The notes under the pieces were generated by a model. The model was given only the letters and a program-made list of their open reading frames with translations. It was not told the DNA's origin and ran no database searches. Positions 24,483 through 45,060 of a DNA stretch of 45,060 nucleotides are shown here, in pieces; the first letter of the stretch is position 1; every line of letters begins with the position of its first letter. Location of the stretch: assembly GCA_024697785.1 (NCBI GenBank), contig JAILEU010000100.1, positions 1-45,060 of the forward strand. Reading direction: 5' to 3'. Made by a program: the position numbers and the translations under genes. The stretch comes from Bacteroidaceae bacterium (GTDB taxonomy: Bacteria; Bacteroidota; Bacteroidia; Bacteroidales; Bacteroidaceae).

Positions 24483-26506
24483 CTACTTTATCAGCACTTT
24501 TTTGCTTCCGATGATGAAAATTCCCTTTTCGGTCGGCTTTGACGGACGTCCTGAAAGGTCAAATATAGTGTCACTACCGCTGACGTCCATCGTCCGGTTC
24601 TCCATCCCGGCGGGCACAAAAGCCGTTTCCTCGATATACCATCGAGCGGCATCGGTGGCAGACGACGGGAGCACCTTGTCGCACATCTCATTGAGGCTGA
24701 GAAAGACATTCGCGCCCGACGGATTCTGGCAGACAAGGAACGACTGCCCATGCAGATTGCTGCTCACGGCATAGACGCCGGCATCGGCCCGGTCCGCCAC
24801 GAACGTCAGCTGCTGGCTGCCCGCGCCAGTGGGCGACAGATAGCTCATGTCCTTTGCACACTGAACGTAGTAATGGCCTTCCGTCCCCGTCCCGACAAAA
24901 CGGAAGTGCTGTCCTGCGCCAGAGGATATCAGCGAGGTGCTGGACGTAAGCCGCGAAGAGATGTTCTTCATGTAGAACTTTCCCCTCCCCATGTTCCGCA
25001 AGGCATACCAGCAATCGTCCGTCCGGAGGGTAACAGCCGTTGCCTCCAAAGCTGCAAACACGGCTTCATACGTCTCCTGGCTGGGATTGGCCTTAAAGTA
25101 CGCAATGGCAGCATCCACATCGTCACGCCGTTCAGGGGCAGGAGCTCCTACCGTGCGGACGCTGACAGCGTAAAAGGGCTCACCTCCTCGTCGATATAAC
25201 GACTTATAAAAGCATATCGTTCGGGATTGACATCAAGGGCATAGAGCCCTCCGGTGATATCCTCAAGCGTGTAAGGTTTATAGACAATGGAAAAGTCGTA
25301 ACCGTGAAGGGTCTCTTCGTAGAGGAAAGCGATGCGTCCGTCGGACTGCATGCACATGGTACTATAGGCCGAGCGCAAGTAGCTGGCCTGGTGGCGTCCG
25401 TCCCAATCCCTGGCCAGATTAGCGGGGGTGCCGAAGTCTGACTTGTCAGCCAACTCCTTATAATATATGCCCACATTGTCGCGTCCGTCGGAGGATTTCC
25501 CATAGCCGAAAGGCACAGACTGCAAGGCGACGTACAGCTTTTCGCCATCGGCCTTACGCACGGCAGGGACAATCATGATCTCTCCGTTGCACGAGTTTCC
25601 GCCAGCGTCAATGCCACCGGTCTGTGCGTTCGACGTGGCACATTCACCCCACGCCCCTTCGGCTTTCTCGACGTCCGTGAACGTAAAGATGTTATACTTT
25701 CGTCCACCCTTGATGCGGCTGCTGCAGATGACGCTTCCGTCGGGCAGCTCCTCTGCCTTCGGTTCGTCTGCCCCCGAGGGGACGGGAGGGGTGTCGGCAT
25801 CGCCCAGCAGTTTCCAGGTCCCCCCGAAGTCGTCGCTGAAGAGAACGTAGTTGCAATAGGTGTTGCCCGCATCCTTGGCCAGTATGGAACAGTAGAGCCT
25901 GTAGAACTTGCCCAGCTTCACGTAACGGCTCTGATGGATTTTTCCTGAGCCGATGAAGAGCGAACGAAGCGGCCCGCGGTTGCTCTTGTCAAACAGGGCA
26001 TAGATGTCGTCCTGAATAAACTCCGGCTCGCTCCAGGTCTCTCCCTCGTCGGTGCTATAAAACCGCGCAACGCCCTGATGCACTTGGCGCGTGCCGTACT
26101 GGAAGCCCGTGTTGCCCGAGCAACTGAGCACCAGAATGCTGTCGCCCGTACGGTCGGCCACAATACAGGGATCGCCATAGGCCGCATCGTACTTTGGCGT
26201 CGGCGAAGTGGCATACTTGCCATGCGTAAACTCAGCTATGTCGCCCCACGTGGCACCATGGTCGCGACTGATGCGGCGACGAAGCTCCACCGAGCCATAG
26301 CCGATGTCCGTACCTCCGTAGCGATAGTCCACCACCGCCACCAAGTTTCCTCTGCGGGTACATGCTATGGAGGGAATACGATAGTTGGGAATACGATTCG
26401 TCACAAAAATCTCCTCGGCCGACTCGTCGGCTTGCACCGGCACGGCTATCTGCAGGGACACTCCGAGTGCCAAAAGCCATAAAAGGGAAAGAAACTTCTT
26501 ATTCAT
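24483..26506 (-). pseudogene. GH33 exo-alpha-sialidase, split by a one-base frameshift
   Basis: The first frame (26506-25148) encodes a signal peptide and a sialidase domain: YRIP at residues 42-45 and Asp-boxes SRDHGATW (80-87), STDEGETW (151-158) and SDDFGGTW (224-231). It stops at TAG 25148-25150. In the next frame a 211-codon open stretch (to 24483) continues with a C-terminal module ending DLSGRPSKPTEKGIF...KKVLIK, a tail typical of Prevotella secreted enzymes. Adding one T to the TTTT run (complement of 25172-25175) joins them smoothly as EEVSPFYAVSVRTVGAP. Intact, it would be an exported sialidase releasing terminal sialic acids from host glycans. As written, only the catalytic part lacking the C-terminal module would be made; a sequencing error cannot be excluded. 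Confidence 0.88.
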
Positions 26507-27143: not shown

Positions 27144-30113
27144 TTAGAAGAACATGCCAGGGCCACCTCTCATGCCACCCATGCCGCCACCCATGCCGCC
27201 TTCCGAGCTACTGCTATTGACGCCCTTGAACGAGCGCAGGTTGTACACCACCGTCAACATGGCGTAGCGGGGCATCACGTTGTAGTAGCTGGTAGTGATG
27301 GCCATGTCGCTGACGCTGCGGGTGTACGAGCGCTGTGTGCCGAGGATATCGTAGCCGGAGATTTTCACCTCAAGGGCATTGTTCAGGAATTTCTTGCCCA
27401 GCGAAGCATTCCAAAGGAACGTTGAGATGTCCTGGCCCTGCATGGCACTACCGGTATAGTAGGTGTAGTTGGCGCTATGCTCCATGGTGATGCCCTTCCA
27501 GATAACCCATTGGAACGTACCGCGGGCGGTATGCGTCAGGTAGTTACGGGGATTCGTATTGCTCTGCACATCGCTGAAGGCGAGGTCGTAGTGGAGCGAG
27601 AAGTCCAGGTTCTGGCTGATGTTTGACGTGATCTCCAGTCCCGGGGCGATGCTACGGCTGATGCTCTTCGTCTTGAGCTCGTTGCAGATGAGCTTTCCGC
27701 TGGCATCCACGTCCACATATTCCTGAATGCCGGTATAGACATTGTAGCCGCCGTTGAGGTTCAGGTTGACGTTGCTCATGATAAGGTCAAAGGGCAGGCC
27801 GTAGGTCAGACCGGCATTGAGATTATAGGTGTTATCGGCAAGGTTCATCGGGCGGGTAATCTGTGCGCCCTTCACCAGGGTGAGGCCGGTGAACTGATCT
27901 CCGCCCTGCTGATAGAAGGCAATGGGCAGCGCATCCACCGTGGTGTTCGTGTTGACGATGGTCGTCACGGTGCCGATGGGATTGTTCGTCATTCCGCCGC
28001 CCAGGTGGAACTGCAGGTTGGTGGCTTTTTCGATGTTACTGTGGATGAAACGGGCATTGACGTTGTGGCTCTGCTGCTGGCCGAGGTCAGGGTTACCGGT
28101 AGAGAGCGCCAGAGGATTGGTGTTGTTGACGCTTTGCTGCAGCTGGTTGATGCCGGGGGCCGACGAATTGCTGCGGTAGAAGACGTTCACGCTGTTGGCG
28201 CTGTTGACCGTCCATTCAAACATGGCCATTGGCATCAGGTTGTAATAGATTTTGGAGTCAATGACATACGAGGGGTCTCCGGCCACGGGACCATGATAGT
28301 AGTCATACGTCTGACGGCCGGAGAGGTCGGCACGCTGCAGTTCCATGCGGGCCATCACATTGAACTTATCGTTGTGGAAACGATAGCCCACGTTGGCTCC
28401 CTGCGTCTTGTAGTCGCTGGTGAAGGTGTTGGACAGATTGGCATCGATGGAGTCGCGGACAGTCGGGTCGAACCTCACTCCGTTCAGCATAATGCCCATC
28501 TGGTCGTACGTCGTCACGCGTTCGCTTTCAGAATGGTTGTTGCGCATGTTCAGCGAGGCTGTCAGCTGCATATTCTCATTGATGGGCTCCGTCCAGGTCA
28601 CGTCGGCGCCATAGTTGTAGTTGTTGGTCTCGTTCGTCGCATTCTGGTCAACATACGTGGCATTGATGGTACGCATGTCGTCGGACGTACTGCCACTGCC
28701 GGAAAGGGTACCGTTGAATCCGAAAGAGAGCACGCGTCCCTCTTCGTTCAACTTATGCAGCCACGTCAGGTTGCCGCCCACGTTGTAGCCATCGCCTCGC
28801 GAAACGGTCTCGTTCGTGGTCGAGGCGGTGTCGTTGGCAAGCGGGGAGATGGTGTAGTTGCGCGAACTGCTGGTGGAGTTGTTGCGTTGGACACTCAGAC
28901 GCGGGCGGAAGACAATCTGGTCATTGTCACCAGGCGTGGCACGGATGAGCATGCTGATGTTGTGGCTTATGTTACGCCTGTCGCTGTTCGAATAGGCTTC
29001 CGTGCGGCGATCCAGGGTGAGATAGTCGCTGTACGTCGAGTCTTCCTGATGGGTGTCGGTGTTATTAAACGAATAGTTACCCTGCACCTCCAGCCTGCCG
29101 TCGAAGAAGGCATCGTTGTAGTTGGCACCGAAAGCATTGGCTTTGGCCACGCCGTTCTGTGCGGCCCATACGCGTCCGCCCATGCCGCCCATGGCACCGG
29201 CGCTCATCAGGTCGTCAAACGAGAAGTTCCTCTGGTTGACGTTATTCGAAAGGCCCATCAGCGTGATGCGACGGTCGCCGTTGAAGATGTTCAGGTTGAA
29301 GTTTCCATTGTAGCGGGGTGTCAGTCCGTTGCCAGGGGTGTTCTCGGAGGGGATGTCGGCACCGGCCTGGGCGGTAATCTTACCGAACACGCCATTGCGC
29401 TTATACGAACGGGTGCGTACATCAAGGGCCTTGAAGCGCTCGCCGTCGTCGAAACCGGTAAACTCGGCCTGGTCGGACTTCTTGTCATAGACGGCCACGC
29501 TCTGAACCACCTCGGCGGGCAGTGTCTTCAGGGCCATCTTGGGGTCGTTTTCAAAAAACTCCTTACCGTCGACTAGCACCTTCTCCACCGTTTCGCCCTG
29601 CGCCTCCACGCCGTTGTCGGTGATGCGAATGCCGGGCATCTTGGCGATGAGGTCTTCGGCCGTGGCGCCGTCCATCACCTTGTAGCCGTCGGCATTAATG
29701 ATGGTGGTGTCGGCAGTCTGCTTCACACGCATGTTCTTGCCTATCACCTGGGCCTCCTTCAGCGCTACGGCATCTTCTTCCATCTTGATACGGCCTATGT
29801 TGTTAGGCTGACCGGGGCGGAACGTATAGTCCTTCGAGAAATCCTTATAGCCTAGGTAGGAGAACTCCAACGTATATTTTCCAGGACGGTTCACGGTGAG
29901 TTCAAACGTGCCTTTCTCGCCGGTAATGGCAAATGTGCCTTCGCCGCCATTGGCCGAGGTGGCCTTCACGACGGCAGCCACCAGCGGCTCCGAGGTCTTA
30001 CTATCCATGACGGTACCCGTCACCTTCACTTCAAAACGTGGCTGAGCCGACGTCATCAATACGCCTGTCAGCAACAGAACAACGACTGAAAACAGCCTCA
30101 AACAATGCTTCAT
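27144..30113 (-). CDS. outer-membrane beta-barrel protein, TonB-receptor-like
   Basis: A 989-residue protein with signal peptide (MKHCLRLFSVVVLLLTGVLM, cleavage near residue 23), an N-terminal carboxypeptidase-regulatory-like beta-sandwich (about 28-112, VTGTVMDSKTSEPLVAAVV), a plug-like domain (about 120-230, with DGATAEDLIAKMPGI and VEKVLVDGKEFFENDPKMAL) and a long beta-barrel (about 240-960). This is the layout of the Bacteroidetes outer-membrane beta-barrel/TonB-dependent receptor-like family without an obvious SusD partner. The C-terminus is an unusual Gly/Met tail (SEGGMGGGMGGMRGGPGMFF). Cargo unknown. It has its own -7 box and is divergent from glucokinase. Confidence 0.88.
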   Translation of the reverse strand: MKHCLRLFSVVVLLLTGVLMTSAQPRFEVKVTGTVMDSKTSEPLVAAVVKATSANGGEGTFAITGEKGTFELTVNRPGKYTLEFSYLGYKDFSKDYTFRPGQPNNIGRIKMEEDAVALKEAQVIGKNMRVKQTADTTIINADGYKVMDGATAEDLIAKMPGIRITDNGVEAQGETVEKVLVDGKEFFENDPKMALKTLPAEVVQSVAVYDKKSDQAEFTGFDDGERFKALDVRTRSYKRNGVFGKITAQAGADIPSENTPGNGLTPRYNGNFNLNIFNGDRRITLMGLSNNVNQRNFSFDDLMSAGAMGGMGGRVWAAQNGVAKANAFGANYNDAFFDGRLEVQGNYSFNNTDTHQEDSTYSDYLTLDRRTEAYSNSDRRNISHNISMLIRATPGDNDQIVFRPRLSVQRNNSTSSSRNYTISPLANDTASTTNETVSRGDGYNVGGNLTWLHKLNEEGRVLSFGFNGTLSGSGSTSDDMRTINATYVDQNATNETNNYNYGADVTWTEPINENMQLTASLNMRNNHSESERVTTYDQMGIMLNGVRFDPTVRDSIDANLSNTFTSDYKTQGANVGYRFHNDKFNVMARMELQRADLSGRQTYDYYHGPVAGDPSYVIDSKIYYNLMPMAMFEWTVNSANSVNVFYRSNSSAPGINQLQQSVNNTNPLALSTGNPDLGQQQSHNVNARFIHSNIEKATNLQFHLGGGMTNNPIGTVTTIVNTNTTVDALPIAFYQQGGDQFTGLTLVKGAQITRPMNLADNTYNLNAGLTYGLPFDLIMSNVNLNLNGGYNVYTGIQEYVDVDASGKLICNELKTKSISRSIAPGLEITSNISQNLDFSLHYDLAFSDVQSNTNPRNYLTHTARGTFQWVIWKGITMEHSANYTYYTGSAMQGQDISTFLWNASLGKKFLNNALEVKISGYDILGTQRSYTRSVSDMAITTSYYNVMPRYAMLTVVYNLRSFKGVNSSSSEGGMGGGMGGMRGGPGMFF

Positions 30114-33905: not shown

Positions 33906-34684
33906 AACCTCACTACAAGTTAGCACTCTCTTTTGCATTTTTCATTCTTCATTTTTCCTTATTCTCCTGCTCCCCCACCCCTCCGCGCGCAGTCACCGTC
34001 AGCGGCACGTTCATTGAGGTCAACGCTGCCATCGACTCCCTTCCGCAGAACGCCGAGGCACAAACCATCCTCGCCGAGTATCGCCAGAAGGTCATCGACA
34101 TCCAGGCTCCTGTCCTCGGCACAGCCCCCTTCGACATCGACCGCGCTCGCCCTGAGGGGCTCATGAACAACTTCGAGGCCGACGTCCTCCGCGCCGCTGG
34201 CGATGCAGCTAATGGCACGCCCGTCGCTCTGGCCGTAGCCAACTACGGCGGCATACGTAACATGTGGCAGAAGGGCGACATCACCGTCGGCGATGTCTAT
34301 CGCGCCTTCCCCTTCGAGAACTGCCTCGCCCTTGCCACCCTCACTGGCGAGCAGCTCACGCGACTTTTCCAGTCTATTGCCCGTGCCGGCGGACAGCCCA
34401 TCAGCGGCGCAACCCTCGTCATTACCCCCGACGGTGACCTCGTTACCGCCGATGTCCAAGGCCACCCCATCGACCCTGCCGCCACCTACCGCATAGCCAC
34501 CCTCGACTACCTCGTTGAAGGCAATGACGGCATGGACGTCTTCCGCGAGGCCACCGACGTTGCCATCTACGCTGAGCGAACCATCCGCGACCTCATCACC
34601 GCCCACATTCAATCCCTCACAGCATCCGGCCGGCCAGTCGCCCCTGTCCTCGACGGCCGCATCACCCTCATCGACCTCCCATAG
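33902..34684 (+). CDS. 5'-nucleotidase C-terminal-domain lipoprotein
   Basis: A 260-residue lipoprotein: signal peptide MKPHYKLALSFAFFILHFSL with lipid Cys23 (LFSC), then the substrate-binding C-terminal domain of the UshA/5'-nucleotidase family (about residues 55-255): NFEADVLRAAGD, VANYGGIRNMWQKGDITVGD, YRAFPFENCLALATLTGEQL and the end VEGNDGMDVF. It lacks the metallophosphatase domain, which is encoded by the next gene. Together the pair would make a complete periplasm-facing 5'-nucleotidase releasing nucleosides and phosphate. The stop codon TAG is part of the first unit of the following repeat array. Confidence 0.85.
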   Translation: MKPHYKLALSFAFFILHFSLFSCSPTPPRAVTVSGTFIEVNAAIDSLPQNAEAQTILAEYRQKVIDIQAPVLGTAPFDIDRARPEGLMNNFEADVLRAAGDAANGTPVALAVANYGGIRNMWQKGDITVGDVYRAFPFENCLALATLTGEQLTRLFQSIARAGGQPISGATLVITPDGDLVTADVQGHPIDPAATYRIATLDYLVEGNDGMDVFREATDVAIYAERTIRDLITAHIQSLTASGRPVAPVLDGRITLIDLP

Positions 34685-34775
34685 CTCCCATAAAACCTAT
34701 AGTTCCTATAGTTCCTATAGTACCTATAGTTCCTATAGATCCTAAAACTCCCATAGTTCTTATAACTCCCATAAT
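34680..34775. repeat. 9-bp-period CCTATAGTT / CCCATAGTT array (copy 3)
   Basis: About ten units (cccatagct, cccataaaa, cctatagtt twice, cctatagta, cctatagtt, cctatagat, and cccatag-type) fill the gap between the two nucleotidase genes. The first unit contains the TAG stop (34682-34684) of the upstream gene. Confidence 0.9.
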
Positions 34776-34787
34776 AAAAACCCTCCC

Positions 34788-35633
34788 ATGAAGCCCCGCA
34801 ACAGATTATCGCTCAATTTTTCATTCTTCATTCTTCTTTTTTCATTCCTCTCCTGCACGCAGGCCCCTGTCACCCTGCTTGTGCTCCATACCTCCGACAC
34901 CCACAGCTGCATCGAGCCCGATGCCAAGACCAATACCGGCGGCTATATCCGTCGTGCCGCCCTCATCGACAGCCTCCGCACCCACGTTGACCCCGACCTT
35001 CTCCTCCTCGACTGCGGCGACTACTCCCAGGGTTCCCTCTACTACAATCTTTTCCGTGGCGAAGCGGAGATCCGCCTTATGAACGCCATGCACTACGACG
35101 CCGCCACCATCGGGAACCACGAGTTCGACTTCGGCGAGGAGAACATGCACCACCTCTTCCAGCTCGCCACCTTCCCCACCGTCTGCTGCAACTACGACGT
35201 CAGCGCCACCTGCCTCCGCGATGTTGTCGTCCCCTACACCGTCATCAAGCGCAAGGGCATTCGCATTGGCATCCTCGGCGTTGCTCCGCCCATGGAAGGG
35301 CTCGTTGCCGAAAAGAACTGCGAAGGCATCCGTTACCTCGACCCCATCGCAGAGGCTAACCGCATCGTCCCCATCCTGCGCGGTCGCGAGCGTTGCGACG
35401 TCGTCATATGCCTCAGCCACCTCGGCTGGCAGATTGACAACCTCATCGACGATGTCGAATTCATCGCCGGCACCCGCGGCATCGACCTCGTCCTCGGCGG
35501 CCACACCCACAGTTTCTTCGATGCCCCCATCCGCTATCCCAACCTCGACGGCGACTCCATCCCCCTTATGCACAACGGCAAGAACGCCGCCCACGTCGGC
35601 CGCTACACCATCACCGTCACTCCCCAGCATTAA
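34788..35633 (+). CDS. metallophosphoesterase lipoprotein (5'-nucleotidase N-domain)
   Basis: A 281-residue lipoprotein: signal peptide ending at Cys23 (SFLSC), closely resembling that of its neighbour, then a calcineurin-like phosphoesterase domain with the metal ligands of the UshA family: Asp37 and His39 (SDTHS), Asp78 (CGDYSQG), Asn110 and His111 (GNHEFDFG), His211 (SHLGW), and His239/His241 (GGHTH). The nucleotide-binding C-domain is missing and is supplied by the upstream gene, an inverted order for a split enzyme. Likely faces the periplasm and hydrolyses nucleotides or related phosphates. Confidence 0.88.
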   Translation: MKPRNRLSLNFSFFILLFSFLSCTQAPVTLLVLHTSDTHSCIEPDAKTNTGGYIRRAALIDSLRTHVDPDLLLLDCGDYSQGSLYYNLFRGEAEIRLMNAMHYDAATIGNHEFDFGEENMHHLFQLATFPTVCCNYDVSATCLRDVVVPYTVIKRKGIRIGILGVAPPMEGLVAEKNCEGIRYLDPIAEANRIVPILRGRERCDVVICLSHLGWQIDNLIDDVEFIAGTRGIDLVLGGHTHSFFDAPIRYPNLDGDSIPLMHNGKNAAHVGRYTITVTPQH

Positions 35634-35740: not shown

Positions 35741-35824
35741 TTTCACGGGCGTGAAACTGAAAATCCATGGGCGTAAAACTGAAAATCCATGGGCGTGGAA
35801 TGACAGATTCAAGCCCATGGAATT
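35741..35824. repeat. 22-bp CATGGGCGT repeats with an inverted copy
   Basis: Three direct units (tttCACGGGCGTGAAActga at 35741, aaatcCATGGGCGTaaaactga at 35761 and a related unit at 35783) and one inverted copy (CAAGCCCATGG at about 35811-35821). Units two and three are exactly 22 bp. Confidence 0.8.
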
Positions 35825-35923: not shown

Positions 35924-38900
35924 TTAAGGCTGTCCAATGGTCACGTTCGTCTTGCCCGTCACGTCGGCAGCATTACCGCCGCCATAGACGTTGCCTGTGA
36001 TGTTGGCACCCTTGACGGCCATGCCGGTTCTTGCAGCTGTTTCACCTTCAACGATTGACACATAGTCAATGGTCGAAGCTGTTCCGATGTTCACATACGT
36101 GTCACCATTCACATTGGCTGCGTTGCCGCCGCCGAAGACGGTGCCGATGGAGCCCATTTCGCCCGCCGTATGAGCCGGCAGCGTCACCTTCGAGCCATCG
36201 CTCAACGTGATGGTAGAGCCTGCTTCCGACGTGGTGGCAGACGCTTTTTCTCCGATCGCCTCGTTGATATTGATGATCGGGTTGCCCGTCACGGTTGCAT
36301 CTGCGCCAAGTCCACCGCCGAACACACGTCCGATGCTGGTAAATGACTTGATGTTGATGGTCGGCTGCGCATAGCCAGACGGTGTCGTGTAGGATGCGTT
36401 GTTGCCACATCCGTAGAGTTCGCCAATAGTAATCGGTTTACAGCCGGTCTCCTCGATGTTTACGGTAATGGAACCATGGATAGTTCCGCCGAGGTTGTTG
36501 CCGCCGAACACGCGGTCGAAGTGTCCGCTGGTGATGGTGAGCGACACGCTGTTACCGACATCCGCTTGTTTAGCGCCACCATAGATTTCCTTCAGATAGG
36601 TGATACAGCCGAGCACGATGTTGCCGCCGCCATGCATGATGGCCTCGTTGCCGCCGCCATAGACCTCGTCAACCTCCAAGTCGCAGACATCGCCTTCGTT
36701 AAGGTTCACGGTTGCATTTGTGACCACGTCACCCAGCGTATTCGAACCGCCAAAGGCACCGTGGATTTTTCCGCCGGTGATGGTAACCGTGCTCTCACCA
36801 CTTCCGTAGTTCGTGTTGTTTACGACACCCACGTCTGCGCCCTCATTGTTGGACCAAGTGGTGCCATCGTAGGTAATCTTATCCTTACCGTTACCTCCGC
36901 CGAAGACGTTGCCCAGCTCAAATGCGCCGAGCACTACGACATCGGTAGCGGGCGTAGCAGCTGCATTGCCGCCGCCATAGACAAACTCGATGCTCACTTC
37001 GTCACAACCGTCGATGACCACCTGTACAGGCTTTTTGGTTGCATCGTGACCACCTGTGATATATGGTCCTGTTGCCTGTGGATTCGTAGGCTGATAGGGG
37101 GCCAGGTTGCCACCGCCATAAACGGCTGCCATTTCGTAATTGCCATATACGTGAGAGGTGGCAGGCGAGATAGGTGTTGTCATCTTCACCAGCACCAGCA
37201 CGGTACCCTTCGGCGAGCCATTCAGGTTGTTGCATCCGAAGATACGGCCGGCATTGACTATGTCCGACCCGTCGGCATTCTTCTCTGTAGCAACACCCTT
37301 GATGAAGGCCACGCCATTTTGCGTCACCGTCACGTTACCGTTCACCAATGCCGCGTTACTAGTATCGCCAAGACCGCCTCCGTAGGCATCACCGTAGATG
37401 GTGCCGCTGTTCAGGTTGACGAGTGCCTTGTCGTTGGTGTCGCTGTTCACGTTACCCAGAGCCGAGCCACCATAGACATCGCCGTAGATGACGGCCGTGC
37501 CCGACGTCGTTGTCCCTGAGATAGAGCCGATATTGACGGTGACATCACCCGTTGTTCCCGTGGCAGAACCGAATCCGCCGCCATGCACATTGGCCTTGGA
37601 GGCTGAGGTGCCCACCGTGCCGGCCGTGACGGTGACGACGATGTTGCCGTCCACCGTGCCGCTGGCGTCGCAGCCGCCATACACGCCGGTGCTGACGGTA
37701 CCTCCGTTGATGTTGACCGTAGGCGCACCCGTTATGCCGGCAGCCTTGCCGCCGCCATAGACGTTGGTCAGGAAGCCGTTCGTCAGTGTCACCGTCGGGT
37801 TACCGTTGGTTGGTGCCAGGCTGCCGCCGCCATAGACGCCACCCGTCACGGCTGCCTGAGCGCCGTCGACGGTGACCTGCGGATTGCCCGTCACAACACC
37901 CTTCGTCGCATCGCTGGCATTACCATAGCCGCCGCCGAAAACATCGCCGCTGACGGTGCCCTTCCGGATGTTGACCGCCGGGTAGTTTGCTGAGCCTGTC
38001 GGTGCGGTATAGACAGCCTGGTTGCCACCGCCGAAGACGTTGCCGAGGTATTTGCCGCACGTCAGCACGTCATCCCAGTTCACGGTGACAGTAATTGTGC
38101 CACTGATGTCACCACTGGTGTTGTTTCCACCATATACATTATTAATATGTCCGCCCTGGATGGTCAGATTGATGTTATTGCCCACGTCTGCAGCGTTGGC
38201 TCCGCCATAGACGCTGCCGATTCCTTCGCCATTCGCGTCGTAGTCGCCCGTGCAGCCGATGCTGATGGTGCCTGCGTTGCCGTCGGCCTCGTTACCGCCG
38301 CCATAGACTTCGGCGATGTGCATGTCGCAAGAATTGTCACCCTTTGCAATGTTCACAGCCACCGAGCCAGAAATATCGCCCTTGCTGTTGCTGCCACCGA
38401 ACACCTTGTTGATGGTACCGCCGGTGATGTCAACGGCTACATTGCCATCTACGTTGGCTTCCTTTTGCGGGGAGGCGTTCTTATCGCCATGACCGCCGCC
38501 GAAAACCATGCCTGTGATGTTGCCACCGTCGATGTTGACATCTGTGCCTTTGACGTCGGCAGCATTACCGCCGCCATAGACATTGGCAATGGAGGTGTTG
38601 CACTTGTTGATGACGTTCACCTGCGGCACACCAACCACGTCACCAGCATCACCGCCACCATAGACATCGCCTGTGACGACAGCCTGAATATTACTGTTGC
38701 TCAGATTGGTGACATCGCCGATGGTCACCACCGGATTACCCGTCACCTGACCTTTGGAGTGGTCAGCGGGGTCACCCTTGCCGCCGCCATAGACATTCTG
38801 CGTCACGGTGCCGTTGAGGATGTTCACGGCCAGGGCTTTGCCGCTCGGTATGGTATATTGGGCCAGATTACCGCCGCCATAGACGTTCTGGACGCTGTTC

Positions 38901-41900
38901 TGAGCACAACTGCCATCCCAGTTCACATTAACCTCGATGCCGCCGCTGATGCTGCCGTCTATGTTGTTTCCACCGAACACATTGGCTATTTTACCACCCG
39001 TTATGTTCAGTACAATATCACTGTTGATGTCAGCTTCTCTGGCTCCGCCATAGACATCGCCGATGCCCTCCGTGGCTCCTCCGGTGCAGCCAATGGTGAT
39101 GGTGCCCGCGTTGCCGGCAGCCTGGTTACCGCCGCCATAGACTTCGGTGATGTGCATGTCGCATGAGCTGTCACCCTTGTCGATGTTCACAGCCACCGCG
39201 CCCGAAATGGCGCCCTTGCTGTTGCTGCCGCCGAACACCTTTCCGATGGTGCCGCCGGTGATGTTAACTTCCACGTCGCCATTCACGTTGGCTTCCTTCT
39301 GCGGGGTGGCGTCCTTGTCGCCATGACCGCCGCCGAACACCATGCCCGTGACCTTGCCGCCGTCGATGGTGACTAACGTGCCTTCGACGTCAGCGGCATT
39401 ACCGCCGCCATAGACATCACCGCTTATCGACGTGTTGCACTTGTTGATGACGTTCACCTGCGGCACGCCAACCACGTCACCGGCATCGCCGCCGCCATAG
39501 ACATCGCCCGTGATGGTGGCCTTAATATTATCGTTATTCAGGTTATCGGCATCGCCGATGGTCACCACCGGATTGCTGGTGACGGTTGCTGTTGAGCCCT
39601 TACCGCCGCCGAACACGCTTCCGCTCACCGTGCCATGCTTGATGATGACAGCAGGAGAGAGGCGCTCGGTGCCGCTAGCCGGCGTAAAGGACGGCGTATA
39701 GGCAGCCTGGTTGCTGGCACCGAAGACATTGGTTACATGCAGGTCGGTGTTACAGCCGCTTGATGCCTGGCTCCAGTCCATGGTGACTGTGATGGTACCG
39801 GTGATATTACCATTGACATTCGATCCACCAAAGGCATCCTGGGCAATCTTGCCTCCGAAGATATTGAGCGCCACGTTGCCAGTGATGTTGGCAGCCTTAG
39901 AGGAGCTTCCCTTTGAACCGCCATAGACATTGTTCATCTCTCCACCCTCAATGGTAAGTGTCACGTTACCATATATATCAGCTAGGTTACAGCCGCCATA
40001 GACATCGCCAAACTTTGTACCGCAACCGATGGTGGCATTGATGTTAACACTGTTGCCTTCGCCCTCGGCACCGATATTTGCCAAGTTGTTACCACAGAAG
40101 AACTCAGAGACATACATGCTTTCTGCACAAGGACCATCGGCATCCACACTGACACCCATATTTCCGGATATGGTACCTCGTTCGTTGCTTCCTCCAAAGA
40201 GTTGGTTTATCTTACCGCCATGGATTTGAAGATTTGTTCCACCAGCTCCGATGTTGGCAGCGGTGACTTCACCATTACCCCCACCGAATACACGGTTGAA
40301 ACGACCGCCATCGACGATTGTCACCAAACCGTAAGCATCAGCAGCATCGCCACCACCGAAAAGATCTTCTATCGTATTGTTACAACCATGAACATGCACG
40401 GTGGCACGGCTTGTTTGATCAGTGGGACTAAAGTCTGCTTGTCTGCCACCGCCAAACACGTTGGCAATGGCGTAGGTAGCATCGTTACCTGTGTAGCTTG
40501 CCGCGTTCTTGGCATCGTGGGCTGTCTGATAGATGTTCACAGTCACATTGCCCTTCGGCGACCCGTTGGTATTGTTACAACCATAGACTGAACCGTCAAT
40601 TGTTGCGTAACCTGTGTAGGTAGGAGTCTGTGCACCGTCTGTTTCACCAATGTTTACAATAACCGCACCGTTCACCTGGCCCTTGTCGCTATTGTCTGTC
40701 ACCAACGTTTCTCCAGAATAGACATTGGCTTCGCCCAGACCTCCACCATAAACATTGCCGTGGAGAGTTCCAGAAAGGATATTAACAGTAGTCGTTGAAT
40801 TCGTAGCATTGACTTGACCAAGAGCCGAACCTCCATATACAGCGCCGTAGATAACAGGTCGGGACGTGTTAGTATTGTCACCCATGTTCACTACTACATT
40901 GCCACTTGTGGCAGTAGCTGCACCATATCCGCCGCCAAAGACATCCAGAGTAGCACTTGTAGAAGTACCTACATTGGCTTTAACGTTCACTTCTATGTTA
41001 CCGACGATGCTACCATTTACATTGGCACCGCCGTAAAGGCCTGTGAGGTTAGTGTTGGCTGTGTTGTAGTTAATTTGCACATTACCATTTGTAGTTGCCC
41101 TGGTATCATCGCCAGTGCCGGAACCCATGCCGCCACCGAAGATGGAGCCATGCAGGTTGCCTCCATTAATGGTAAGAGTCGTAGTATTTGAAGTTGATGC
41201 GTTGACCTGGCCAAGAGCTGAACCTCCGTAAATATTGCCATATACAGTAGTATTACCTAAAGTAACTGTGACATTGCCAGTCGTGGTGGTTGGATGACCG
41301 AATCCGCCTCCATAGACATCGGCTTCGTTACCCGCACCTGTAGCACCCACCGTACCGCCATTCAAGGCAACTGTTACAGCGCCTACACTACCACTGGCAT
41401 TACAGCCGCCGTAAACGCCTGCGGTCACCTTACCACTGGTCAGCGTAATTGTTGATGTGCCTGATACACCTGCCGCATTACCGCCACCAAACAACTTGGC
41501 AACAGTACTGCTGGCATTGTTGTCATTATAGGTCACGCTTGTGTTGCCTGTTACACCTGCATTGTTACCTCCACCGTAAACGTTTCCAGTAACTACAGCA
41601 GAATGGCTTGCGACAGCATCACCAATTGTTACCACAGGATTGCTGGTTACAACACCCTTGTCGGGATCACCCGCGACACCATTACCGGCACCAAATACGC
41701 TACCGCTTACAGTACCGTGTTTGATATTTACTTGGGGATAGCTACCCGGGGTCGTCGGAGTATAAGTAGCCAGGTTGCTGGCACCAAATACATCGGTAAT
41801 ACTCTTCTCGGAACAGTTACTCTGGCTCCAGTCCATATTGACTGTGATGGAGCCTGTAATGTTACCATTGATGTTAGAACCACCGAAAGCACGGTCTATA

Positions 41901-44900
41901 TCACCTGCGTAAATGTTTAGTGTGGTGCTGCCATAAATATTGGCAGCCTTACCACCAGAATATGTTGCATCGCCTGCTGCAACTCCCTTCGAACCGGCAT
42001 AAACTTCGCCAATAGTACCGCCATTGATGGTCAGCGTGATATCTCCGTAAATGTCAGCAAGGTTAGAGCCGCCATAGACAGCCCCGAAGTTGGTGCCGCA
42101 GGAAATGGTGGTGCTCAAAGTGACACGATTCTCTGAAGTTCCAATAACAGCCAGATTGCCACCGGCAAAGAATTCCTTGATATCTTCGACGCAACCTGTG
42201 TTGTCAACAACTACACCCATAGTGCCTTTAATAGTACCCAGCTCGTTGCTTCCTCCAAAGAGGTGATTGATAATGCCGGAATTGACAGTAAGGTTGGTAC
42301 CGCCAGTACCAATATCAGCAGCATGACCACCTTCGCCGTTTCCTCCACCGAATACCCAGTCAAAGCGACCACCGTCAATTCTAGTCACCACGCCAAGTGC
42401 TTCAGCAGCGTTACCGCCACCGAATACGCGACGGATGGTGTTTTCGCAAGTATACACGTGGACTGTAGCCTTCTTGTCCCCTGTGGGAGAGTAGTCAGCC
42501 TGGTTACCGCCACCGAACACCTGATCGATGGCATATGTAGCATCGCTGCCTGTATAGCTGGCCGCATTGGTCGTATTGTGTGCGGTCTGATACACGTTCA
42601 CGGTCACGTTGTCTTTGGGCGAACCATTGGTATTGTTACAGCCATAGACAGAGCCGTTGATAGTAGCGGATCCAGAAACTGAAGTTGCATAGCCCGTAGT
42701 CTGATTCACGGTGCCCGACCCGATGTTGACTATTACCTCACCATTCACCTGACCCTTGGCCACATTGGCAGCTCCTGCTTCACCCAGACCACCGCCATAG
42801 ATATTACCATTGATGGTTCCACCGGTAATGTTAACTGTGGTCTTGTCTGCAGCAGCATCATTGACCTGACCCAAAGCAGAACCTCCATACACATTGCCAT
42901 GGATAGTAGTACCATTGGCCGTTACGGTCACGTTGCCATTCGTTCTGGTAGCGTCGCCAAATCCGCCACCGAACACAATATCCGTCGTGCCATTAACCGC
43001 ACCTATGGTACCTCCAGTAAGACTAACTGCAATATCGCCTGTGACCGTGCCGCTGGTGTTACAGCCGCCATAGATACCTCCAAGGACAGTACCGCCCGTC
43101 ATGCTTACGTCACCACCAGCTACACCTGCCTCATTACCGCCGCCATAAACACAGTGGCTGACCGTACCATTGATGATATTGACATCAGGTGTGCCACCAT
43201 AAGCAGCATGGTTACCACCGCCAAACACGTCGCCTACGTACCAGCCGCAGGTCTTTGAATTCTTGTTGACATTTACTGTGATTTTATTACTAATTGTACT
43301 GCCTGTGTTATTTCCACCAAATACACGTGCAATCATTCCACTTACAATATTCAGTGTAATGTCTCCGCTTGTGATGTTCGCATCGTTAGCTCCACCATAT
43401 ACATCACCAATGCCTTCCAACTCGTAACCAATACGGTTGGTTGAGCTTAGATTATTGTGGCCATCGGTGAAAATACCCGTACACCCAATTGTAATGGTTC
43501 CAGCCTTGCTGGCAGCCTGGTTACCACCACCATAGAGTTCGCCAACTCTTAACAAGCAGTCACCATCTCCTCTTTCAACATTCACGCTTAGTGTGCCAGA
43601 TATGTTTCCGCTAATATTATTACCTGCAAACACGTGCTCTATAGTGCCACCCTCAATGGTCACAGATGTATTACCATTCACCGCAGCCTGCCTTCCGCCA
43701 CCATAGACGTAGCCTATGCGATTACCTCCGGCAATAGTGACATCTGTGGCGTTTACAGTAGCTTGGTTACCGCCGCCATAAACTTCTCCAATGCTTATGT
43801 TATTGCCACAATGTACAGTTACTATTGGTGTGCCTGAGTATGCTGCCACATTGCCACCACCAAAGACCTGATTAATGGCATATCCACTACTGGGTTGTTG
43901 GTCTGTACCGTAAACATCAACAGTAATATCACCACTGATGGCGCCGCTCTGGTTGCTGCCGCCATAAACGCCGCCGTTAACCGAACCGCCAGTCACCACG
44001 ACTGCCACATCCTGACTGCTGCGTGCCTTGTTGGCGCCACCAAAGACATTGCCACCCACGGTGCCGCCGGCCACATACACCTGGATCTTGTTCTTGGCAT
44101 AGCCGTTGTTGCCGCCGCCATAAACGCTGGAGGTAGTGGTGGCCTCGTCGGCAAACACCACATTTGATGCATTGACGGTGTAGGAGTTGTTGCTTGTCGC
44201 CGCACTTCCGTAACCGGCACCGAAGATGCCATCGGAGTTGTTCTGCGTTGCATTGCCACCGAAATAGAGATTGATATTTCCGTCGGTTGCACCACCTGAG
44301 CCTTCTGTTCCATAGCATCCACCAGCCACCCAGCTGTCGAAGGTTCCACCAGTGATAATTATCCTGCGGCTGCCATATCCCGCAGAATACTGCCCGGAGC
44401 CGTATAGATAGCGATGGATAGTGCCGCCTTTCACCCGCATAATCATAATTGTCTTAGCGGCGTCAACGCCGCCGCCCGCTGTTTCTATTCCGCCAGAAAT
44501 ACCACCGAGAAAGTTGCCCCCAAGAACTTCAAGAGTTCTAACCGTTTGGGAAGCATGACCATTACCCGGGGATTCAAGCCCCATATAAACCTCTTTGTCG
44601 GCTGCATTAGACCCAAAGGTGCCGCTCAGAATCAACATATTCACCTTTGAGCTTGTGGAGGTGCAATAAACTCGTTGTGCTACCTCAACTACACTAGTGA
44701 AGGTAAGTTTACTATTGTCCTTATTGTTTGCTCGGTCGTAGTCGCTGCCTAATATAACATTTGCAGTGAACGCACCAGTATATCTAGTGGCACTGGATGC
44801 GCGGAACACGAATGATTCGGTGAATTGTCCACTTTCTATACGTAACGTAAATAAACTGTGAATACCTGAAGGAGAATAATCTCCATAGACAGATGTGGCG

Positions 44901-45060
44901 ACATTATTGTTGCCATTGGCCACACCACGTCCAATCGTAAGATTAAAACTATTGCCATCTATGTATCCGCTGACAGATAGGTTCATGTTCTCAAACTTCA
45001 CATCGTTGCTACATGTGTAATTTCCACTGTACGACACATTCGAGGGTGAACCACTTGATG
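35924..45060 (-). CDS. giant Gly-rich repeat protein, putative beta-solenoid adhesin (5' partial)
   Basis: At least 3,040 codons are open; the frame runs off the right edge, so the N-terminus and promoter are outside the window (the GTG at 45037 is not a real start: the frame continues upstream as SSGSPSN). The first 300 visible residues are less regular; the rest consists of dozens of units built as V(Y/F)GGGN-x-A-x-V, a turn, then a strand such as VNIxGGTI, about 20-35 residues each, typical of stacked right-handed parallel beta-helix repeats. Higher-order repeats are present: a block of about 2.06 kb (GCNNTNGSPK at 42.6 and 40.6 kb) and one of about 835 bp (VPQVNVINKCNTS at 39.4 and 38.6 kb). 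The protein stops right after a repeat (KTNVTIGQP) with no anchor or sorting domain. Probably a surface or secreted adhesin; the function is inferred only. Confidence 0.88.
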   Translation of the reverse strand, partial: SSGSPSNVSYSGNYTCSNDVKFENMNLSVSGYIDGNSFNLTIGRGVANGNNNVATSVYGDYSPSGIHSLFTLRIESGQFTESFVFRASSATRYTGAFTANVILGSDYDRANNKDNSKLTFTSVVEVAQRVYCTSTSSKVNMLILSGTFGSNAADKEVYMGLESPGNGHASQTVRTLEVLGGNFLGGISGGIETAGGGVDAAKTIMIMRVKGGTIHRYLYGSGQYSAGYGSRRIIITGGTFDSWVAGGCYGTEGSGGATDGNINLYFGGNATQNNSDGIFGAGYGSAATSNNSYTVNASNVVFADEATTTSSVYGGGNNGYAKNKIQVYVAGGTVGGNVFGGANKARSSQDVAVVVTGGSVNGGVYGGSNQSGAISGDITVDVYGTDQQPSSGYAINQVFGGGNVAAYSGTPIVTVHCGNNISIGEVYGGGNQATVNATDVTIAGGNRIGYVYGGGRQAAVNGNTSVTIEGGTIEHVFAGNNISGNISGTLSVNVERGDGDCLLRVGELYGGGNQAASKAGTITIGCTGIFTDGHNNLSSTNRIGYELEGIGDVYGGANDANITSGDITLNIVSGMIARVFGGNNTGSTISNKITVNVNKNSKTCGWYVGDVFGGGNHAAYGGTPDVNIINGTVSHCVYGGGNEAGVAGGDVSMTGGTVLGGIYGGCNTSGTVTGDIAVSLTGGTIGAVNGTTDIVFGGGFGDATRTNGNVTVTANGTTIHGNVYGGSALGQVNDAAADKTTVNITGGTINGNIYGGGLGEAGAANVAKGQVNGEVIVNIGSGTVNQTTGYATSVSGSATINGSVYGCNNTNGSPKDNVTVNVYQTAHNTTNAASYTGSDATYAIDQVFGGGNQADYSPTGDKKATVHVYTCENTIRRVFGGGNAAEALGVVTRIDGGRFDWVFGGGNGEGGHAADIGTGGTNLTVNSGIINHLFGGSNELGTIKGTMGVVVDNTGCVEDIKEFFAGGNLAVIGTSENRVTLSTTISCGTNFGAVYGGSNLADIYGDITLTINGGTIGEVYAGSKGVAAGDATYSGGKAANIYGSTTLNIYAGDIDRAFGGSNINGNITGSITVNMDWSQSNCSEKSITDVFGASNLATYTPTTPGSYPQVNIKHGTVSGSVFGAGNGVAGDPDKGVVTSNPVVTIGDAVASHSAVVTGNVYGGGNNAGVTGNTSVTYNDNNASSTVAKLFGGGNAAGVSGTSTITLTSGKVTAGVYGGCNASGSVGAVTVALNGGTVGATGAGNEADVYGGGFGHPTTTTGNVTVTLGNTTVYGNIYGGSALGQVNASTSNTTTLTINGGNLHGSIFGGGMGSGTGDDTRATTNGNVQINYNTANTNLTGLYGGANVNGSIVGNIEVNVKANVGTSTSATLDVFGGGYGAATATSGNVVVNMGDNTNTSRPVIYGAVYGGSALGQVNATNSTTTVNILSGTLHGNVYGGGLGEANVYSGETLVTDNSDKGQVNGAVIVNIGETDGAQTPTYTGYATIDGSVYGCNNTNGSPKGNVTVNIYQTAHDAKNAASYTGNDATYAIANVFGGGRQADFSPTDQTSRATVHVHGCNNTIEDLFGGGDAADAYGLVTIVDGGRFNRVFGGGNGEVTAANIGAGGTNLQIHGGKINQLFGGSNERGTISGNMGVSVDADGPCAESMYVSEFFCGNNLANIGAEGEGNSVNINATIGCGTKFGDVYGGCNLADIYGNVTLTIEGGEMNNVYGGSKGSSSKAANITGNVALNIFGGKIAQDAFGGSNVNGNITGTITVTMDWSQASSGCNTDLHVTNVFGASNQAAYTPSFTPASGTERLSPAVIIKHGTVSGSVFGGGKGSTATVTSNPVVTIGDADNLNNDNIKATITGDVYGGGDAGDVVGVPQVNVINKCNTSISGDVYGGGNAADVEGTLVTIDGGKVTGMVFGGGHGDKDATPQKEANVNGDVEVNITGGTIGKVFGGSNSKGAISGAVAVNIDKGDSSCDMHITEVYGGGNQAAGNAGTITIGCTGGATEGIGDVYGGAREADINSDIVLNITGGKIANVFGGNNIDGSISGGIEVNVNWDGSCAQNSVQNVYGGGNLAQYTIPSGKALAVNILNGTVTQNVYGGGKGDPADHSKGQVTGNPVVTIGDVTNLSNSNIQAVVTGDVYGGGDAGDVVGVPQVNVINKCNTSIANVYGGGNAADVKGTDVNIDGGNITGMVFGGGHGDKNASPQKEANVDGNVAVDITGGTINKVFGGSNSKGDISGSVAVNIAKGDNSCDMHIAEVYGGGNEADGNAGTISIGCTGDYDANGEGIGSVYGGANAADVGNNINLTIQGGHINNVYGGNNTSGDISGTITVTVNWDDVLTCGKYLGNVFGGGNQAVYTAPTGSANYPAVNIRKGTVSGDVFGGGYGNASDATKGVVTGNPQVTVDGAQAAVTGGVYGGGSLAPTNGNPTVTLTNGFLTNVYGGGKAAGITGAPTVNINGGTVSTGVYGGCDASGTVDGNIVVTVTAGTVGTSASKANVHGGGFGSATGTTGDVTVNIGSISGTTTSGTAVIYGDVYGGSALGNVNSDTNDKALVNLNSGTIYGDAYGGGLGDTSNAALVNGNVTVTQNGVAFIKGVATEKNADGSDIVNAGRIFGCNNLNGSPKGTVLVLVKMTTPISPATSHVYGNYEMAAVYGGGNLAPYQPTNPQATGPYITGGHDATKKPVQVVIDGCDEVSIEFVYGGGNAAATPATDVVVLGAFELGNVFGGGNGKDKITYDGTTWSNNEGADVGVVNNTNYGSGESTVTITGGKIHGAFGGSNTLGDVVTNATVNLNEGDVCDLEVDEVYGGGNEAIMHGGGNIVLGCITYLKEIYGGAKQADVGNSVSLTITSGHFDRVFGGNNLGGTIHGSITVNIEETGCKPITIGELYGCGNNASYTTPSGYAQPTINIKSFTSIGRVFGGGLGADATVTGNPIININEAIGEKASATTSEAGSTITLSDGSKVTLPAHTAGEMGSIGTVFGGGNAANVNGDTYVNIGTASTIDYVSIVEGETAARTGMAVKGANITGNVYGGGNAADVTGKTNVTIGQP

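Follow-up and report, generated by a model that had tools for sequence, protein, structure and literature searches.

What role a giant protein built from short glycine-rich units plays in a gut bacterium is the question raised by the 45,060-nucleotide stretch of DNA analyzed here, contig JAILEU010000100.1 of the Bacteroidaceae assembly GCA_024697785.1, hereafter the window. The assembly is a draft genome of 201 contigs and 3.24 Mb, 84.6% complete. On the minus strand of the window, at positions 35924..45058 with the stop codon at 35924-35926, lies a single open frame of 3,044 codons, in agreement with an original prediction, made from the nucleotide letters alone, of one frame exceeding 3,040 codons. 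The contig ends at 45,060 bases, and the start of the gene and the N-terminus of its product are therefore off the assembly. The product, termed type B, is rich in Gly (19.5%), with Thr, Asn and Val at about 10% each, 37 Cys residues and a calculated isoelectric point (pI) of 4.56; its repeated VYGGG-type units are called coils below. Type B may be the stalk of a surface adhesin linked to a second giant protein, type A, and for this question the gene neighbourhood was more informative than the repeats alone.

Relatives of the type-B protein

Relatives were sought by scanning genome contigs with the C-terminal segment of the window protein. A total of 222 were confirmed, the best 80 of which gave 78 loci, all labelled as Bacteroidales, Bacteroidaceae, Prevotellaceae or Prevotella. 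Contig titles named a ruminant animal at 35 loci and a rumen co-assembly at two (37/78); the remainder consisted of one from horse faeces, 18 with RUG names, which we take to be rumen genomes, and 22 with no host given. By a mechanical rule, 53 of the 78 frames were complete and encoded 610-3,971 residues (median 2,396), the shortest being that of locus L121, which adjoins a run of Ns, and the next shortest measuring 682 residues. Across the C-terminal segment, 71 aligned relatives were 47-69% identical to the window protein. This alignment (A2) used 71 of 77 segments, six longer than 600 residues being left out, as was L096, which is near-identical to L095. Some of the 78 loci are interdependent: they include seed contigs (L076, L092 and L135, from genomes G224, G221 and G129, which also seeded alignment A1), and L107 and L150 share one contig.

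The family was rare in draws of genomes, in each of which the genome of the window was included. Two draws of 294 genomes of the order contained it in 6 genomes each; it was further present in 3 of 41 relatives, in 3 of 19 genomes of the genus and in 1 of 392 genomes of the phylum.

A second giant protein upstream of type B

On contig C33, the genome of the window carries the gene of another giant coil protein, type A. This gene spans 1,987 codons, runs to the contig end and directly follows other genes, one of which matches the fimbrillin family PF13149. A search of 294 genomes of the order with this sequence returned five more type-A genes, and in all six genomes type A lay directly after a run of pilus-type genes. 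Pfam confirmed PF13149 beside type A in five of the six, the exception being L044, whose type-A protein itself matched no Pfam family. The sorting domain of the type IX secretion system (T9SS), TIGR04183, reached its cut-off in two of the six type-A tails (L106 and L047), fell below it in three and was absent from one, and in five type-A chains the coil begins soon after a hydrophobic stretch. The organism of the window has a T9SS: its genome encodes the T9SS proteins PorU and PorV, both above curated cut-offs on contig C113, and has five places matching TIGR04183.

Among the six type-A genomes, type B was present in that of the window and in G129, G221 and G224; G298 holds a possible type-B fragment, and the match in G126 was type A itself. 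Type B comes after type A, in the same orientation, in G224 and G129. The same linkage was seen from the side of type B. Fifty of the 78 loci were usable, 21 genes open at the 5' end (including L096) and seven without an upstream gene being left out. Of these 50 loci, 31 have a type-A C-terminus upstream in the same orientation; in 17 of them it is immediately upstream, within 128 base pairs (bp) of type B. With the six seed loci and L135, which comes from a seed genome, set aside, type A was upstream in 24 of 43.

Other observations concern the surroundings of these genes. In the genome of the window, locus L015 is the type-A gene truncated by the end of contig G000:C33, a second type-B C-terminal fragment stands at the start of contig C63 (L159; G000:C63:3-536), and the contig breaks fall inside the coil genes of C33 and C63. 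A search for a type-A C-terminus closing the gap between C33 and C105, run without a positive control, found none. The pilus-type cluster at L015 includes a neighbour of 918 residues (L015:454-3210) that appears lipoprotein-like by eye and carries many Asp-rich DxDGDG stretches; it gave only a sub-threshold Pfam match and none in NCBIfam. In L083, L097, L124 and L134, the gene directly upstream of type B shares the ending CK.MNC..QAL.R, and genes of this kind, presumably resembling those of mobile elements, sit between type A and type B in the first three of these loci.

Division of type-B genes at one coil

Eighteen of the 57 type-B genes complete at the 5' end begin directly in coil. In five of them (L102, L103, L104, L127 and L135), a homologous gene encoding the front half lies 4-27 bp upstream. 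The products of these split genes were aligned against a fused relative of 2,519 residues from G224. The upstream products aligned up to residues 1908 (L102), 1937 (L103), 1908 (L104), 1924 (L127) and 1924 (L135), and the downstream products, in the same order, from residues 1880, 1902, 1968, 1902 and 1922. In all five loci, the break falls at the same place to within about one coil. The two halves are directly contiguous in L102, L103 and L127; the downstream products of L104 and L135 begin with some 470-600 extra residues. To the eye, the downstream products of the five loci have a hydrophobic, signal-like start. Some genomes encode this chain in one piece and others as two genes, with the break at about one coil; this pattern suggests that stacking of coils brings the halves together after export.

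The other 13 coil-starting genes comprised three with no upstream gene in view, eight preceded by an unrelated gene, and two further candidates. Of these two, L116 was rejected as a split gene as its upstream product is not homologous, and L121 was dropped as its upstream neighbour terminates in Ns.

Repeats and conserved regions of the window protein

The coil motif [VILAE][YFHN][GAC][GACS][GCSAN] occurred 88 times in the window protein, compared with a mean of 8.4 and a maximum of 16 in 200 shuffles, and repeated 6-mers formed 418 pairs, compared with a mean of 3.0 and a maximum of 8 in 50 shuffles. Motif-based cutting gave 85 units with a median of 31 residues (interquartile range 26-36). 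The larger periods that had been read from the DNA were also recovered: CNTS at residues 1872 and 2151 is spaced by 279 residues (837 bp, against about 835 bp predicted), GCNNTNGSPK at residues 806 and 1493 by 687 residues (2,061 bp, as predicted), and the third copy placed near 37.2 kb was located as GCNNLNGSPK at residue 2608, at about 37.24 kb.

The longest run of like units in register comprised 10 units (residues 1815-2131 vs 2089-2407) and the second 9 units (residues 695-1018 vs 1373-1710); in 200 shuffles of unit order no such run exceeded 4. There are two block duplications, with shifts of 274-279 and 678-687 residues, and they lie side by side. The large block occupies 41699..42976 (residues 695-1120) and 39617..40942 (residues 1373-1814) on the minus strand, its copies being 60.5% identical in amino acids and 63% in DNA. 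The block with the 279-residue period occupies 38666..39616 (residues 1815-2131) and 37838..38794 (residues 2089-2407) on the same strand, with 66% amino-acid and 75% DNA identity; with a run of 10 units and a period of 9, its two copies share one unit. Judged by their sequence divergence, the block copies are old.

By eye, the unit list shows a cassette made up of about 5-6 unlike units, which recurs about six times and is found in both blocks; a simple pattern for the cassette start matched at four places in the window protein. Ten pairs of Cys residues are 20-35 residues apart. Six of them fall within cassettes (501/526, 956/987, 1655/1679, 1966/1991, 2244/2269 and 2792/2818), where the spacing is 24-31 residues, and a disulfide linking adjacent coils would be possible there. 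Of the three nested levels of repetition first proposed, the units and the repeated larger blocks were recovered and strict nesting was not, the two large blocks standing next to each other. The repetition is better described by units and cassettes, together with two separate duplications of blocks.

The C-terminal module (35927..37258, minus strand, residues 2601-3044) is strongly conserved, with Cys at positions 126, 233 and 259 kept in 72/72 alignment rows. The chain stops 19-30 residues past the last YGGG motif in 62 of 73 relatives and at 31-40 residues in seven more; L075 stops at 60, and L131, L134 and L146 carry longer tails. Four genes open at the 3' end and L096 were excluded from this count, leaving 73 of the 78 loci. 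The long tails of L131 and L146 both terminate in VWVSISE.

At the other end, the first 430 residues of the window protein (43769..45058, minus strand) form an irregular beta region containing a conserved DYDRA stretch, followed by regular VYGGG coils. In 14 relatives complete at the 5' end, the first residues of the window protein match positions 356-1490. Pfam matches of these 14 N-terminal parts, accepted at E-values up to 0.001, included Fn3_assoc and CHB_HEX_C_1 in 12, Big_2 in three and HL_N-beta in one. None of the 14 held a catalytic domain, and an enzyme beyond the window edge, for which the repeats would serve as mere linkers, was not seen in them. Some other relatives match Peptidase_M26_N and one has a ricin-type lectin-like domain; GLUG matches were below the GLUG cut-off.

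Searches of the window protein against Pfam, NCBIfam and the sequences of the PDB matched no family. Its only two Pfam matches were sub-threshold and unrelated, and no fimbrillin domain (Mfa_like_1, PF13149) was found. No T9SS sorting domain (TIGR04183 or type C) was detected in the whole window protein or in its C-terminal 200 residues, nor was a T9SS tail found in the C-terminal module. Pfam gave no autotransporter C-terminal beta-barrel family in the window protein, whose chain terminates in coil, and no von Willebrand factor domain in the window protein, from which the N-terminus is missing, or in the type-A protein of L044. No N-terminal two-partner secretion (TPS) domain was present among the 14 N-terminal parts of relatives, the N-terminus of the window protein itself being missing. 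For the coil regions of this group of giant proteins, Pfam and NCBIfam likewise returned no family match, and there was no match in the PDB.

Other features of the window lie downstream of the giant gene. A 22-bp repeat of 2.3 copies (35747-35797) is found just 3' of its stop codon, and the gene that comes after it encodes a convergent metallophosphoesterase. An array of 9-bp units (CCTATAGTT-like, 34676-34773) closely precedes the metallophosphoesterase gene, which lies at 34788. Farther away on the minus strand are genes for an outer-membrane beta-barrel family protein with CarboxypepD_reg domains (27144-30113) and for a BNR-repeat protein (25148-26506).

Predicted fold and length

The C-terminal 485 residues, modelled by AlphaFold2 from 72 alignment rows, gave a mean predicted local distance difference test score (pLDDT) of 93.8 and a predicted template modelling score (pTM) of 0.92. 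The model is all-beta, with two strands per unit and no helix. The N-terminal 430 residues (17 rows) gave a pLDDT of 78.3 and a pTM of 0.86 and were predicted to be almost entirely beta. At the level of prediction, these repeating two-strand units, of high confidence at the C-terminus, are consistent with the stacked coils anticipated for the protein. A Foldseek search of viral models with the C-terminal model returned a best E-value of 0.20. Many of the insignificant Foldseek neighbours are presumably beta-helices or solenoids, which is a weak hint only, and the lack of a Foldseek match is no proof of a new fold.

A beta-solenoid rises by about 0.47-0.48 nm per coil. At one coil for each of the 85 units, the computed length is about 40 nm, and the very long fibre that had been expected therefore does not follow.

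Proposed function and alternatives

The window would encode most of a secreted, cell-surface beta-solenoid forming the stiff stalk of a giant adhesin of gut Bacteroidales, in which each unit of 25-35 residues would be one coil and duplication of coil cassettes would alter the length of the stalk. The missing N-terminus (about 360-1,490 residues in relatives) would most likely carry beta-sandwich accessory domains of the Fn3_assoc and CHB_HEX_C_1 kind, which may point outward and bind glycans or partners. Type B would work with type A, which may be exported and anchored by the T9SS beside fimbrillin-type genes, somewhat like Mfa5; type B, with no sorting tail found, would be held by type A or by the fimbria through stacking of coil ends. 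What the data show is the open frame with its repeats, a repeating all-beta fold as predicted, the conserved module, linkage of A and B genes in relatives and the division of B at one place in five loci; export, surface location, anchoring, adhesion, a ligand and docking of type A to type B we infer. That type B is a surface-adhesin stalk linked to a fimbria- and T9SS-associated partner, perhaps assembled end to end, is offered tentatively, with a likelihood just short of an even chance.

A more specific form of this reading is that chains A and B, or the halves of B, dock end to end and continue one coil stack, building a self-assembling composite beta-solenoid. Type-A chains start with xIxGxVYGGG and most type-B chains end with VYGGGNxAxVTGxTxVxIG; in such an assembly, these ends would be open, matched in phase and uncapped by any domain. 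Docking of A to B would extend to two proteins the stacking suggested for the split halves. We regard the composite solenoid as possible, if doubtful. If this were true, the bacteria would possess a modular filament on their surface, with a length and a tip exchangeable gene by gene; it would be anchored by the T9SS, connected to type V fimbriae and built on a solenoid geometry so far absent from the PDB.

Several observations weigh against the proposal of an adhesin stalk held by type A. Searches of the window protein detected neither a T9SS tail nor a barrel nor any other known anchor, and its export and retention therefore lack an explanation. Foldseek gave no significant match in the PDB (best E-values of 0.53 for the C-terminal and 0.31 for the N-terminal model). 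In 19 of the 50 usable loci, no type A was found within 10 kb of upstream DNA, and in G008, a distant relative of the same genus, no pilus-type gene was present in the 14.5 kb examined for the type-B gene; in G014 the upstream side of type B is off the contig, and in both genomes a type-A-like frame was seen by eye elsewhere. In G221, type B sits beside the pilus-type cluster in divergent orientation instead of continuing it. For the window gene, the upstream side lies beyond the contig end. Additionally, 8 of the 18 coil-starting genes have an unrelated gene immediately upstream, and a split half is therefore not always next door. Finally, the conserved module of L103, L105, L107 and L128 is close to the beginning of a frame of at least 3,943 residues, and therefore it is not always terminal.

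Some of these points would also suit a secreted protein that acts alone, forming a coat or the matrix of a biofilm; it would be shed or loosely attached and would have no partnership with fimbriae or type A. The sorting tail not found in type B, the 19 loci with no type A in the upstream DNA examined, the G008 gene away from pilus-type genes, the acidic pI and a composition rich in Gly, Thr and Asn are all in keeping with such a shield. That 31 of 50 loci have type A upstream in the same orientation is harder to reconcile with it, as is the strong conservation of the C-terminal module, which suggests a specific partner surface, and a stand-alone matrix is considered unlikely. The ruminant source of many relatives brings to mind a carbohydrate-active beta-helix enzyme acting on plant polymers; with the N-terminal model, Foldseek returned polygalacturonases, an alginate lyase and a pectin methylesterase among its insignificant neighbours, and HL_N-beta of hyaluronate lyases was matched in one of the 14 N-terminal parts. 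With no catalytic family in the window protein or in those 14 parts, and with 0.31 as the best PDB E-value, an enzyme appears quite improbable.

Giant repetitive beta stalks are typical of toxin-delivery systems, and the coils could be read as the stalk of a stick ending in a variable toxic C-terminus, to which the longer tails of L131, L134 and L146 might belong. Short tails alone in all but four of the 73 chains, Pfam scans of the window protein and its relatives that gave no toxin-related or TPS family, and the convergent metallophosphoesterase gene next to the window gene make this very improbable. Equally remote is an artefact of assembly or gene calling, i.e., collapsed or chimeric repeats or a shadow frame. 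The draft consists of many contigs, with breaks within coil genes, and the exact repeat copy number of the window protein could be wrong; however, relatives occur in two other families of the order, complete frames were found at 53 of the 78 loci, the C-terminal segments of aligned relatives are 47-69% identical to that of the window protein, and the block copies differ by 25-37% in DNA.

The adhesin-stalk reading, if the proteins are adhesive arms, would bear on how rumen bacteria hold on to plant fibre, to epithelium and to each other. Through their link to pilus-type genes and the T9SS, the giant coil proteins gain a concrete, testable place, and the division of the gene at a fixed coil provides a direct handle on end-to-end assembly of solenoids.

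Comparison with known systems

In the open-licence text of PubMed Central (PMC), no paper recognisable as treating the type-B family was found, and comparison was made with better-known giant surface proteins. Adhesins of the filamentous-haemagglutinin type are exported by two-partner secretion and have a giant secreted beta-solenoid stalk of about 40-50 nm, to which the roughly 40 nm predicted for the window protein would be similar. They differ in that the window protein and its relatives showed no TPS family in the scans and no significant Foldseek match. Adhesins of the RTX type depend on type I export. The structure 3p4g of MpAFP was among the insignificant Foldseek neighbours of the window models. 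RTX and MpAFP-type adhesins likewise form a giant repetitive stalk in Gram-negative bacteria, whereas their repeats are Ca-stabilised beta-sandwiches (PMC3492233, PMC7493085). Pfam found no RTX family in the window protein.

The proteins Giant1-5 of Apilactobacillus kunkeei are extracellular, 3,000-8,000 residues long and encoded by consecutive genes (PMC12863079). Consecutive genes for giant, putatively extracellular proteins would also describe types A and B. Giant1-5 belong to another phylum, and the opening of their abstract mentions no link to fimbrillins or the T9SS.

The closest parallel for type A may be Mfa5, a T9SS substrate and the tip protein of the type V (Mfa1) fimbriae of Porphyromonas gingivalis (PMC7835359). 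The type-A protein of L044 differs from it in being built of coils and in having no Pfam family; in type B no T9SS tail was found. Type A resembles Mfa5 in its very large size, in its position beside fimbrillin-like genes and, in some genomes, in its T9SS-type C-terminal domain.
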